Position numbers and translations under genes: made by a program | Part shown: piece after piece, positions 7,677 through 25,896 of the stretch | How the letters are laid out: each line of letters opens with the position of its first letter | Numbering within the stretch: position 1 is the stretch's first letter | Source of the DNA: a virus | DNA: 25,896 nucleotides | Virus record (IMG/VR): IMGVR_UViG_3300005913_000079 | Coordinates: 1-25,896 of that record | Reading direction: 5' to 3' (one strand) | Notes under the pieces: generated by a model | Seen by the model: only the letters and a program-made list of their open reading frames with translations | What the model was told of the DNA's origin: nothing | Database searches by the model: none

Positions 7677-8016
7677 TACTTTTGATGAACTAGAAGTAAT
7701 TGCCTGCGGTGAGATGGGTTTAAGTATCAAGCGTTTTTACAAATTAACACCTCGAAGTTTTGATAATATTTTAAAAGGATATAGAAAAAAAGAAAGCGAT
7801 TTATTAGAAGTAAAATTGACTTTAAACAGAGATTTAGAGTTTGCAATCTTAAGTCCTTATTTCGATTCAAAAAAGCTACCAAAAAACTACAGTGCAAAAG
7901 ATTGGAAGCCTTTTATCTGGGAAACAAAAGGCGCTGTAAATCAAGGAAAAAGAGTGTTTAAAAGCAAAGAAGATTTGCATAAAATATTTAAAAAAGATGA
8001 TTCAGACAATATTTAA
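7645..8016 (+). CDS. gpT-like extension of the tail assembly chaperone, made by -1 frameshift
   Basis: This frame has no start codon of its own before an ATG at 7714, but it is open without interruption from the slip site at 7639. After slipping, the peptide continues from PETRGK into VNGSEDVPFDPTFDELEVIACGEMGLSIKRF and runs to 8016, giving a fusion of about 237 residues with gpG. The extension is basic and helical, ending in KRVFKSKEDLHKIFKKDD. In lambda the T part binds the tail tube protein while G binds the tape measure, and the same division of labour is likely here. Independent translation from 7714 cannot be excluded but would lose the acidic start. Confidence 0.85.
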   Translation, partial: VNGSEDVPFDPTFDELEVIACGEMGLSIKRFYKLTPRSFDNILKGYRKKESDLLEVKLTLNRDLEFAILSPYFDSKKLPKNYSAKDWKPFIWETKGAVNQGKRVFKSKEDLHKIFKKDDSDNI

Positions 8017-8023
8017 AATTAAT

Positions 8024-8416
8024 ATGAAAGCGAAAGCTAGGCTATTATTAATTCTTATCTGTATGGTAAGTTTTACGGGATTCGGTACTACAACCGACCT
8101 GCGCCAAAATTCGGATTGTGTAACCATTGAAACCTGTTTTGCAGTTGACAATGTTGTTGCAGATTTTGTAGTCGTTAAATCAGATTTTAGAACTAATGAG
8201 CTCAAAGGGATATCCTTTAGTCAGTTGTTATCTAAAGAATTATTTCATTATTATTTGAACGCTAATCTAAATTTAGAAGCCAATTTAAAAGAAAAATTAA
8301 TACCTCCTTTAAATTTCTTTTTAGATAGTTCAATAAATAGTCAGCTACACAAATTAAATTTAAAAACACTTTTGAGCAGGCTTGCCAGAGATGGTATTAA
8401 TTGCAATTTATCATAG
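8024..8416 (+). CDS. small exported protein of unknown function (moron-like)
   Basis: A 130-residue protein starting at ATG 8024 (MKAKARLLLILICMVSFTGFG). The reading frame extends 9 codons upstream, but the start chosen gives a clean signal peptide: basic n-region, hydrophobic core and probable cleavage near residue 21. The mature part has two cysteines close together (DCVTIETC) and is otherwise helical (FSQLLSKELFHYYLNANLNLEANLKEKL). No family is recognised. It interrupts the usual chaperone-tape measure order and is closed by its own strong terminator (8439-8479), which is the look of an inserted moron gene. A cell-envelope role such as superinfection exclusion is inference. Confidence 0.65.
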   Translation: MKAKARLLLILICMVSFTGFGTTTDLRQNSDCVTIETCFAVDNVVADFVVVKSDFRTNELKGISFSQLLSKELFHYYLNANLNLEANLKEKLIPPLNFFLDSSINSQLHKLNLKTLLSRLARDGINCNLS

Positions 8417-17059: not shown

Positions 17060-17476
17060 ATGAAAACAAAACTACTAATTTCTGCATTCTCATTCGGAGC
17101 ATTAGCCTCCGAATGGCAAATAATGGTAATCGATGCTCAATATCAATTTTTAGCGATTCTATGTGTAGTTTTGTTAGATGCTGTTTTTGGTATTGCCAAG
17201 GCTTGGAAACTAGGGAATTTTGAAACAAAAAAAACTTTAAAGGCGGTTTTTATGCTGGTAGCATTTTGGGCTTTACTGGCAACGGTTTTGACTATAGAAT
17301 TAGGATTCCCTTTTGCTAGTTTTTTGTCAGAAGCTATTTTATTACCAATTTTATTATCACAATTAATTAAAATTTTAAAGAATATGCAACTGCTTGGGTT
17401 AATTCAGAATGATGTATTAACAAAAATTTTGTCAAAAATAGATAAACATAAAGAAGTAAATAATGTACAAACCTAA
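17060..17476 (+). CDS. holin
   Basis: A 138-residue holin, the protein that opens the inner membrane at the programmed time. It has hydrophobic segments at ~5-17, ~28-47, ~62-79 and ~84-104, and the phage-holin-family motif LLDAVFGIAKAWKLGNFETKKTLKAVFML (~38-66), where D-x-x-x-G-x-x-K-A-x-K and the basic stretch that follows are diagnostic. The tail is polar and helical. Its end overlaps the endolysin start by 14 nt, as expected for coupled lysis genes. Confidence 0.88.
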   Translation: MKTKLLISAFSFGALASEWQIMVIDAQYQFLAILCVVLLDAVFGIAKAWKLGNFETKKTLKAVFMLVAFWALLATVLTIELGFPFASFLSEAILLPILLSQLIKILKNMQLLGLIQNDVLTKILSKIDKHKEVNNVQT

Positions 17477-17897
17477 AAATTACAGCTTACAAGAATTAGC
17501 ACATCCGCAGATAATTGCAGCAATAGGAGAAAATAACACCTGGCGAAGATTAGATGCAGATGTTTTACGAGATTTGCAAACCATTAGAGATTTGTGGTTT
17601 TTAAAATATGGCTCTGGTATTTTTGTTAACCGAATAGAACTTGGTTTAGATTCAAGGGGTTTGCGCCCGCCTAATGATCCAGACGGCTCATTTTACTCAA
17701 CTCATAAACAAGGCAATACTTTTGATTTAGAGCCAGTAAATGGCTTATTTAAGCATTTATATGATTTTATAATTTTGTTAATCAAAGAAAATAAGCTGAT
17801 AAAAATTAATACTTTAGAGAATTTTGGAGACACCTTAAAATGGATTCATGCTGGTTACATGAATACAGAAGAAAAACCTTTGATAATTTATTTGTAA
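17463..17897 (+). CDS. endolysin, peptidase M15 (L-Ala-D-Glu or D-Ala-D-Ala type)
   Basis: A 144-residue zinc peptidase of the M15 family acting on peptidoglycan cross-bridges or stem peptides. The zinc signature is complete: His81 and Asp88 in STHKQGNTFDLEP (family pattern SxHxxGxAxD) and His129 in LKWIHAGY, with Arg67 in RGLRPP upstream and Glu120 as a candidate catalytic acid. No signal peptide is present, so export depends on the holin. It overlaps the holin by 14 nt and is followed one base later by the spanin-like gene, making a compact holin-endolysin-spanin cassette. Confidence 0.9.
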   Translation: MYKPKNYSLQELAHPQIIAAIGENNTWRRLDADVLRDLQTIRDLWFLKYGSGIFVNRIELGLDSRGLRPPNDPDGSFYSTHKQGNTFDLEPVNGLFKHLYDFIILLIKENKLIKINTLENFGDTLKWIHAGYMNTEEKPLIIYL

Positions 17898-17898
17898 A

Positions 17899-18351
17899 AT
17901 GAAAAAAGTAATCAAAATCTTACTAATTATTATTTTGTTTGGATGCAAATCTACCTCCGAAATAAAAAATAATAAGTTAGATGTGGTGAAAACCAAAACA
18001 GAAAGCACTTCAAAAAATATAGAACTGCAGCAATTAGAACTAGATTCTAATAAAATTACAATTCATGTTGCAGATCCTAAAATACCTGTTATAATTACAG
18101 ATAACAAAGGCAACAAAAAAACCTTTCAAAATGTTAAAAGTTTAACCATCAACAAAAAAAAGGAAACCAAAATAATTGAAAAATCAGCAGAAAAAAAAGA
18201 CCTCAAAGAAACTTTAGTTGACAAATCAATCATTAAAGAAGAAAAAGAGGTGGTTTCTGACGCCAATAATTTTAAAGGAATATTTATTGCCATTGCGTTC
18301 ATTTTTGGTTTTGCTTTGGTCGGTTATTTGGTATTTATATTTAAAAAATAG
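17899..18351 (+). CDS. probable unimolecular spanin (outer-membrane lipoprotein plus C-terminal TM)
   Basis: A 150-residue protein with an N-terminal lipoprotein signal (MKKVIKILLIIILFGC, lipobox LFGC, acylated Cys16), a charged, lysine/glutamate-rich periplasmic stretch (~17-124) and one C-terminal membrane helix (~126-148, GIFIAIAFIFGFALVGYLVFIFKK). This is the topology of a u-spanin such as T1 gp11: Cys anchored in the outer membrane, C-terminus in the inner membrane, fusing the two at the end of lysis. It is the last gene of the lysis cassette. Phe at position -2 of the lipobox is unusual for enterobacteria but acceptable in Bacteroidota. Confidence 0.8.
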   Translation: MKKVIKILLIIILFGCKSTSEIKNNKLDVVKTKTESTSKNIELQQLELDSNKITIHVADPKIPVIITDNKGNKKTFQNVKSLTINKKKETKIIEKSAEKKDLKETLVDKSIIKEEKEVVSDANNFKGIFIAIAFIFGFALVGYLVFIFKK

Positions 18352-18426
18352 TGACATAAAAAAGACAAAAATAAGTTAATAATAATTTAACATACTGTAT
18401 ATTAGGTAGTTATATATTTTATTATT

Positions 18427-18473
18427 CCTCCCTTCTAAGGAGGCTGTCGCAGGTTCGAATCCTGCAGGGCTCA
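18427..18473 (+). other. attP: attP core: 3' part of tRNA-Arg(UCU)
   Basis: The sequence folds as a perfect tRNA 3' part. Anticodon arm: CCTCC/GGAGG with 7-nt loop CTTCTAA, anticodon TCT at 18434-18436. Then a 5-nt variable loop. T arm: GCAGG-TTCGAAT-CCTGC. Then the 3' acceptor strand AGGGCTC and discriminator A. No CCA is encoded. The 5' half (acceptor 5' strand and D arm) is absent: upstream is AT-rich DNA. This is the identity block that a tRNA-targeting integrase leaves in the phage, so that integration rebuilds the host tRNA. The integrase begins 118 bp downstream. Confidence 0.92.
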
Positions 18474-18479
18474 CACCAA

Positions 18480-18505
18480 CCTCACTACTTGTAGTGGGGT
18501 TTTTT
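18480..18505 (+). terminator. intrinsic terminator directly after the attP core
   Basis: CCTCACTAC (18480-18488) pairs with GTAGTGGGG (18491-18499), one G-T wobble, followed by T6 (18500-18505). It probably derives from the host tRNA terminator carried with the core. It would also shield the integrase promoter from late lysis-operon transcription. Confidence 0.85.
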
Positions 18506-18526
18506 GTTCCTTATTATTTTCTTAAC

Positions 18527-18559
18527 TTGTCTGTATTTGTCTGTATTTGTCTATATTTG
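18527..18559 (+). promoter_or_regulatory. integrase promoter overlapping three 10-bp tandem repeats
   Basis: A Bacteroidota -7 element TATATTTG (18552-18559, consensus TAnnTTTG) has TTG at 18527-18529, 22 bp upstream, inside the 17-23 bp range described for flavobacteria. The same stretch consists of three tandem 10-mers, TGTCTGTATT, TGTCTGTATT, TGTCTATATT (18528-18557), one per helical turn, as expected for integrase arm-type sites or an autoregulatory operator. Confidence 0.65.
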
Positions 18560-18590
18560 ATTCAAAAACGTGACAAAAAAAAGACAATCT

Positions 18591-19778
18591 ATGAGGTATA
18601 AATTAAGATTAGATGCTAGAATTAATCAAAAAAGAAAGAACGGATATCCGGTTTCTGTTTTCTTGTCTGATAAAGGTGGTGTAAAAAAAGTGAATTTAGG
18701 TTTGTTTTTTGAGAAAAAAGAATGGAACTTTAAAACGCAAATGCCGAAAACCGATAAAAAATTATTTATTATTATTCTGAAAAAAAGACAGATTTTAGAA
18801 AATATTTTGATTGATATTGTATCAGGTGAAAAATATAATTTGGAGCGCGTGAAAAATATTTTGCTAAATGAGGTTGAAACCATAAATACAAATTCTTTTT
18901 TTGAGTTCTATTTGCAGTTTAATGCCGAAAAACACAAAGCAGGCAAAATTGCAACTGCAAAAAGCTATGAGAATGCCTATAATATTTTAAAAGTCTTTAG
19001 AGACGATGTTTTGTTTGATGAAATAAACTATAATTTATTAAATGACTTTAAAAATTGGCGCGTACAAATTGGTAATTCAAAATCTACAGTGCACACTTAT
19101 TTAAGAAAATACAGAGCGGTTTACAATGAAGCCTGCAGAAGAAATTTTACTACAGATTCAAAGCCTTTCGAGGGTGTTTTTAAAAATATAACAGTAAAAG
19201 CAAACAGGACCAAAAAAAGGAACCTGACAAAAGAAGCTATAAAAAAACTCGAAGGGGTTTCTGGCTTAACCATGTATCATCAGCGAGCCGTAGATTTATT
19301 TTTGCTAATGTTTTACTTTGGTGGCCAAGATTTGAAAGATATCTACTATTTAGAGCATCAACAAATAAATAAAAACAGAGTTTATTTTATGCGTGGCAAA
19401 TTGTCTGGCAATGGGTACCAATTTGATTTGCAAATTACAGATAAAGCGCAAAAAATTATAAATAAGTACCAGGTAACGGGTAAATTTGTGTTTCCATGGA
19501 GAAAAGATTTTGATGGTTACAAAAGTTTTCGCGACAATTTAAGGCGTTCTTTAGATTTGGTGCAAACTTTAACAGCTATCGAGGTGCAGCCATTGGGCGG
19601 TAAAATTCGTATAAAAGTAGCTCGGCACACTTTTGCAAATATTGGTAAACAGCTTTATTTAGATACCGATTTGCTGCGCGAATTAATGGGACATGAACGT
19701 AATGATGTGGATACGATTTACAAAGATCGTTTTCCAGAGGCGGTGCGGGATGAAGCGCATTTAAAAATTATTCAATAA
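18591..19778 (+). CDS. int: phage integrase (tyrosine recombinase, Bacteroidota/IntDOT-like type)
   Basis: A 395-residue integrase: arm-binding domain (~1-95, with NGYPVSVFLSDKGGVKKVNLGLFFEKKEWN), SAM-like core-binding domain (~103-200, FFEFYLQFNAEKHKAGKIATAKSYENAYNIL) and catalytic domain (~212-385). Lys270 (MRGKLSG), Arg345-His346 (VARHTFA), His368 (MGHERN) and the nucleophile Tyr377 (TIYKDRF) are visible. The usual Arg I position reads FYFGGQDLKDI with no arginine, and the HxxR histidine is Lys342; both are seen in IntDOT-like enzymes. A GTG at 18570 would add 7 residues, but it lies only ~11 bp after the -7 element, so ATG 18591 is preferred. It acts at the adjacent attP to insert into tRNA-Arg. 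Confidence 0.92.
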   Translation: MRYKLRLDARINQKRKNGYPVSVFLSDKGGVKKVNLGLFFEKKEWNFKTQMPKTDKKLFIIILKKRQILENILIDIVSGEKYNLERVKNILLNEVETINTNSFFEFYLQFNAEKHKAGKIATAKSYENAYNILKVFRDDVLFDEINYNLLNDFKNWRVQIGNSKSTVHTYLRKYRAVYNEACRRNFTTDSKPFEGVFKNITVKANRTKKRNLTKEAIKKLEGVSGLTMYHQRAVDLFLLMFYFGGQDLKDIYYLEHQQINKNRVYFMRGKLSGNGYQFDLQITDKAQKIINKYQVTGKFVFPWRKDFDGYKSFRDNLRRSLDLVQTLTAIEVQPLGGKIRIKVARHTFANIGKQLYLDTDLLRELMGHERNDVDTIYKDRFPEAVRDEAHLKIIQ

Positions 19779-25527: not shown

Positions 25528-25845
25528 ATGCCGACAATACCAACAGTTAAGAAGAAACCATGGACACAAGAGCATGTGCAGCACAAACGGATTAAAGATA
25601 TGCGTTGGTTCTACAACAGCCGTAAATGGAGGAGATATAGCAAGGATTATAAAGCAAGGAATCCTTTCTGTTTACAATGTGAAGAAGCTGGAATAGTAAA
25701 GCCTGCAAAGGTTACAGATCATTTAGAAACATACGAACAACAGCCAAAAGGTTTCGATTTAGATGCTTTGAATGATAAATATATGCAACCGCTTTGTAAA
25801 AAATGCCATGACAGCAAGTCGGGCAGAGAAGCGCACAAAAAGTGA
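25528..25845 (+). CDS. HNH endonuclease
   Basis: A 105-residue HNH nuclease with zinc pairs FCLQC (Cys48, Cys51) and LCKKC (Cys90, Cys93). The HNH core is VTDHL (Asp64-His65), ALNDKYMQPL (Asn82) and KKCHDSKS (His94). Small HNH proteins of this kind sit just before the terminase genes in many cos phages, such as HK97, where they are needed for specific genome cutting during packaging. The location here, next to the end of the window and before the (unseen) terminase, fits. It follows the helicase by 2 bp. Confidence 0.9.
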   Translation: MPTIPTVKKKPWTQEHVQHKRIKDMRWFYNSRKWRRYSKDYKARNPFCLQCEEAGIVKPAKVTDHLETYEQQPKGFDLDALNDKYMQPLCKKCHDSKSGREAHKK

Positions 25846-25896
25846 ATGAAAAAGGGGTATGGGGTAAAATCCATAGAGATAAATATGGCTGTACAT
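25842..25896 (+). CDS. start of the next gene (3' partial), possibly small terminase
   Basis: Two frames are open to the end of the window: GTG at 25842, which overlaps the HNH stop as GTGA and reads MNEKGVWGKIHRDKYGCT, and ATG at 25846 reading MKKGYGVKSIEINMAVH. The first has the coupling geometry used throughout this genome but the second has the better start codon. The remaining residues are too few to name a family. After an HNH gene the small terminase subunit is expected. Confidence 0.4.
   Translation, partial: MNEKGVWGKIHRDKYGCT

Follow-up and report, generated by a model that had tools for sequence, protein, structure and literature searches.

The window, as we call the whole 25,896-bp stretch of DNA that was analysed, makes up an entire virus record. 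At 18427-18473 it carries a tRNA-Arg(UCU) gene of which only the 3′ part is present, read from the sequence as beginning with the anticodon stem and closing with the discriminator base. As an earlier note on this DNA had it, this half gene lies between the lysis genes and an integrase gene, and phage genes run on without a break at both flanks, holin and endolysin to the left and a tyrosine integrase to the right. The features of the region are:

17060-18351, plus strand: lysis end, with a holin gene (17060-17476), an endolysin gene (17463-17897) and a small lipoprotein-like ORF (17899-18351); assigned by Pfam (PF05105) and PHROG, the last ORF from its sequence only.
18345-18368, plus strand: left arm-type repeat GTGACATAAAAAAGACA, which matches the right arm at 21 of 24 bases and precedes the anticodon loop by 81 bp.
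18427-18473, plus strand: attP core, the tRNA-Arg(UCU) 3′ part, identified from its sequence, host matches and in-silico fusion.
18480-18505, plus strand: phage-borne terminator hairpin of the tRNA, an inverted repeat with a T-run that folds as a hairpin.
18527-18559, plus strand: three repeats of about 10 bp ending in the box TATATTTG, a possible promoter or operator of the integrase gene.
18564-18587, plus strand: right arm-type repeat GTGACAAAAAAAAGACA, identified by its match to the left arm and followed closely by the integrase start.
18591-19778, plus strand: tyrosine integrase (Phage_int_SAM_5, an arm-binding domain), assigned by Pfam and PHROG, with the start taken from an alignment.

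The tRNA part is laid out as an anticodon stem (CCTCC), a loop (CTTCTAA, anticodon TCT), the returning strand GGAGG, the variable loop, the T arm, the 3′ strand of the acceptor and the discriminator. The 5′ half is absent, and ARAGORN found no complete tRNA in the 25,896-bp window; in-silico fusion of the piece with the 5′ halves of host tRNAs (n = 7) gave a complete tRNA-Arg(tct) in 7/7 cases. The stretch 18427-18510 was matched, at E ≤ 0.001, in 373 of 397 Tenacibaculum-family genomes, and the comparison with host chromosomes for which the earlier note had called showed an intact tRNA-Arg(tct) at all 30 of the matching loci that were fetched; at many of these the gene lies downstream of tRNA-Ser and tRNA-Pro genes, and in the hosts, too, a terminator follows it at the corresponding position. 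The description of the piece as a perfect 3′ part with a terminator and no 5′ half thus stands for the part, the terminator and the missing half, but not for the word perfect: tRNA position 45 is a T in the window (18445), and a G in the contigs L004/L022, in the related contig L002 and at the 30 host loci, and the T45 variant occurs in none of the 397 genomes. Among the same genomes we found neither an identical host attB, the best match to core and terminator being 87%, nor a lysogen of the window phage itself. Position 18445 and position 18406 are two of the three single-base differences that separate the window from L022 to the right of 17.1 kb; they lie 39 bp apart around the core and both are G/T exchanges. 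With a core that matches the 3′ part of the host tRNA, restores the tRNA and is unlike every host seen at one base, and with an integrase gene starting about 120 bp past the tRNA part, 18427-18473 is the attP of the adjoining tyrosine integrase, an ordinary temperate-phage attachment site.

Relatives of the phage present the same site in split and in unsplit form. In Tenacibaculum soleae UCD-KL19 (NZ_MAKX01000001.1), a 63% identical integrase gene lies directly behind an intact tRNA-Arg(tct), and a second tRNA 3′ half is found 28.7 kb downstream, behind the prophage's own tail and lysis-end genes; the attL and attR so formed are 94% identical over a shared stretch of 86 bp, and closing this prophage to a circle yields the order of the window, lysis end, tRNA half, integrase. 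The genome G483 also has an attL and an attR, and the premise that a single prophage parts the junction to its two ends is borne out by the T. soleae arrangement. The unsplit form, a tRNA 3′ half flanked by other genes on one side and by the integrase on the other, was seen in L004 (the same phage in another assembly), in L002 and L007, and in contig C16 of the assembly G473; since the intact tRNA-Arg of G473 sits on a separate contig, that assembly holds both the bacterial target and the phage attP. For the window phage only the attP form was encountered, no contig carrying its attR being found, and a profile scan of viral contigs gave no additional cases. In G423, contig C1 has tRNA-Arg 3′ ends at 3492424, 3524478 and 3554333, about 32 and 30 kb apart, which suggests two elements stacked at one tRNA. 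Of the blocks shared by the Arg(UCU) attP and attR sites that were compared, CTTCTAAG lies furthest to the left, and we therefore place the exchange of strands, probably, in the anticodon loop (18432-18438).

Relatives of the integrase, 36-63% identical, are found in 10 further genomes, where their genes directly follow a tRNA gene or, in the case of G473, half of one; the commonest target is tRNA-Arg(UCU), the others being Ala, Asp, Met, His and Arg(ACG). The listed start of its ORF, GTG 18570, falls within the arm repeat, and alignment with relatives favours ATG 18591, which is probably the translation start. In five aligned integrases, that of the window (18591-19778) included, the box in which the first catalytic arginine usually lies reads GGQDLKD, without an arginine, and may represent a variant active site. 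Repeats resembling those at 18527-18559 are also present in L002.

The two arm-type repeats follow a pattern that recurs in the relatives, in which equivalent repeats precede the integrase: a pair of units, each about 11 bp long and set in tandem, stands immediately in front of the integrase gene, with another such pair beyond the core. The unit is GTGACATAAAAAAGACA / GTGACAAAAAAAAGACA in the window, CCGTGAAATTTCCGTGAAAT in L002, GTGATATTTTTGTGATATTTT in T. soleae and AAATGACAAATAAATGACAA in G473, so that the units agree within each phage and differ between phages. In the window, the arms agree at 19/22 positions of the best 22-mer, a value reached by 0/300 shuffles; across the phages the best 22-mer matches range from 18 to 22 of 22, and 0 to 3 of 300 shuffles reach them. 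By a count made by hand, the window, L002 and T. soleae agree in the distance from the start of the left unit to the anticodon loop, 81-82 bp. The repeats are putative arm sites to which the integrase would bind. In L095, at about 1730-1830 (G528 C1), an arm-like unit, AAAAATCCGTG, stands about eight times before an integrase gene instead of the usual two.

Matching arms also bear on whether the site could be the seam between two neighbouring elements, a possibility raised in the earlier note. At an interior junction of G528 where two elements are joined, the arms disagree; because the paired arms of the window match, unlike those, the site is a single phage's own attP, and a junction of two different elements was rejected.

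The right-hand end of the window is marked by two further features:

25528-25845, plus strand: HNH endonuclease gene beside the packaging end, assigned to PHROG HNH families and at the same position in relatives.
25854-25896, plus strand: right half of a cos-like element ending in ACAT (putative cut ACAT/CGC, the slash marking the cut), a block conserved in 36 records.

The window ends at the HNH gene, as had been noted, stopping 51 bp past it, and L022, from another assembly of this phage, stops at the same base. In the 36 records (those of a pattern scan plus the window), GGGGTATGGGGTRAAATC is followed by ACAT/CG at 43 nt (33 records) or 44 nt (3 records), counted from where the motif starts. 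Three sequences stop exactly at ACAT/CGC, namely the window, L022 and the unrelated contig L123; L119, to which L123 is 100% identical over 4423 bp, reads through it. Moreover, the record of the cultured Cellulophaga phage phi39:1 (NC_021804) begins with CGCCCATAAG and ends in GAAACAT, 43 nt after the motif start. Three contigs and the phi39:1 record thus share one end near HNH/TerS, the fixed end expected of a cos-packaging phage of the HK97 type, and the window also has the gene order of that type, with Phage_portal and Phage_capsid recognised by Pfam; an ORF between the two, without a Pfam hit, is placed as the annotated prohead protease of phi39:1. The window contains no exact terminal repeat. 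Beyond ACAT/CGC, the sequences of L002, T. soleae and L006 go on to TerS and then TerL. The block looks like a cos site, cut to leave a presumed cohesive overhang. We weigh evenly the broader proposition that a wide group of phages and prophages, Flavobacteriaceae phages among them, shares a cos element (GGGGTATGGGGTRAAATC, then a spacer of about 21 nt, then ACAT/CGC) beside HNH and TerS; a small literature search returned no description of such an element.

The left end of the window is of another kind. Base 1 coincides exactly with the start of L028 (IMGVR_3300005914_000450) and lies 18 bp from that of L029 (3300022839_000200), and it is not at the cos-like block; shared contig ends can therefore have other causes. 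The expectation that the window starts just before the portal gene did not hold, as 1.6 kb precede that gene and include, at 166-969, a second tyrosine recombinase (Phage_integrase and Phage_int_SAM_4) that lies upstream of the portal and far from attP; at the corresponding place T. soleae has unrelated small genes. In the part missing from the window, TerS and TerL are expected, at about 2.3-2.5 kb to judge by the relatives, together with further genes before the second recombinase. The suggestion that terminase genes span the gap is supported by the relatives, L002, T. soleae and L006 all having the order HNH, cos, TerS, TerL, but other genes also lie between TerL and the portal. Within the window, 19 differences are clustered at 7713-8118, where L022 and L029 share one allele as far as compared and L028 is mostly as the window; the cluster is possibly a recombination tract in a small tail gene region.

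Taken together, we consider it highly likely that the locus is the attP of a temperate tailed Flavobacteriaceae phage that packages from cos, and that the DNA came from free phage, most likely linear packaged virion DNA, and not from a single prophage. That the assembled DNA is not a single prophage follows from the unsplit attP, and linear virion DNA is the most likely source, since the contig stops precisely at the cos-like site. The earlier note had proposed a free, circular or tandem phage in place of a single prophage; the latter part is upheld by the unsplit attP and its matching arms, whereas a circle or a tandem is not needed, because attP is also unsplit in linear packaged DNA, which is the simplest form. 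Lysogens may have been present beside the free phage.

A host chromosome with the same prophage twice in tandem would also show, at the middle junction, what looks exactly like an attP, and elements do stack at tRNA-Arg, as with the three 3′ ends in G423, spaced at about 32 and 30 kb, and the several in G528 and G405. We regard this as very improbable, since the arms at the interior junction of G528 mismatch, unlike those of the window, and since a tandem leaves unexplained why contigs end at cos in two assemblies, in an unrelated contig and in phi39:1. Slightly less probable still is a false attP, made in assembly by joining the attR and attL of a lysogen through the tRNA half and terminator that they share (about 80 bp). 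Wrong bridging of this sort is possible in principle, the attL and attR of the one T. soleae prophage sharing just this stretch, but a second assembly has the same join, as do three further phage contigs, and the cos end points to virions. Least probable of all is that the tRNA piece is a dead relic of a phage that integrates elsewhere or not at all, for which the T45 base unseen in hosts and the lack of a lysogen of the exact window phage in the 397 family genomes might speak, because the core, the arms and the distances between them are conserved in relatives for which genomes show both attL and attR, and the piece still completes a tRNA when fused in silico.

If the site is the attP of a free phage packaged from cos, as we favour, the integrase would bind the tandem arm repeats flanking a core made of the tRNA-Arg(UCU) 3′ half and would swap strands with the tRNA gene of the host, the anticodon loop being the probable point of exchange. 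A whole tRNA beside the integrase would then be restored by the 3′ half and terminator that the phage brings, forming attL, and the host 3′ half would end at the lysis end, forming attR; the DNA of the free phage would be packaged from cos and be linear in virions. The DNA would most likely derive from free particles of a temperate phage, and the clue to the host points to Flavobacteriaceae carrying tRNA-Arg UCU. For phages of this group two tests on the sequence are suggested, matching arms pointing to a true attP and a contig end at ACAT/CGC to packaged DNA. The attP is of an ordinary type; of greater use is a by-product of the analysis, the shared cos-like element: if a broad group does share it, contig ends at it would directly separate packaged virions from lysogens in metagenomes, and adding the attP and arm-match test to the cos end would reveal the life state of a phage.

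In attP sites of the lambda type, arm sites lie on both sides of the core, the integrase has an arm-binding domain and the tRNA gene used as target is restored by the phage copy. The window agrees in the arm-binding domain, in the arm repeats flanking the core and in a tRNA target restored by the phage copy; it differs in having two tandem units of about 11 bp per side as arms, and no bending-protein or excisionase site was identified at its attP. The genomic island of Riemerella anatipestifer 10K (PMC6764341) is likewise flavobacterial and has att repeats and a tyrosine integrase next to an Arg-tRNA; there, unlike in the window, a 53-bp att lies at and downstream of the tRNA end, without the core in the anticodon loop. 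A paper on Baltic Flavobacterium phages mentions neither att sites nor cohesive ends. Phage phi39:1 has the same cos-like block, a large terminase 69% identical to that of L002 and a portal 34% identical to that of the window; it differs in that three small genes lie between the genome start and TerS, no integrase is annotated and no tRNA-Arg half was found. The T. soleae prophage differs from the window in being integrated, with its site split into attL and attR, in its arm sequence and in having more genes between TerL and the portal, but it shares the tRNA target, the half tRNA with its terminator, paired 11-bp arms at similar spacing and the order HNH, cos, TerS, TerL.
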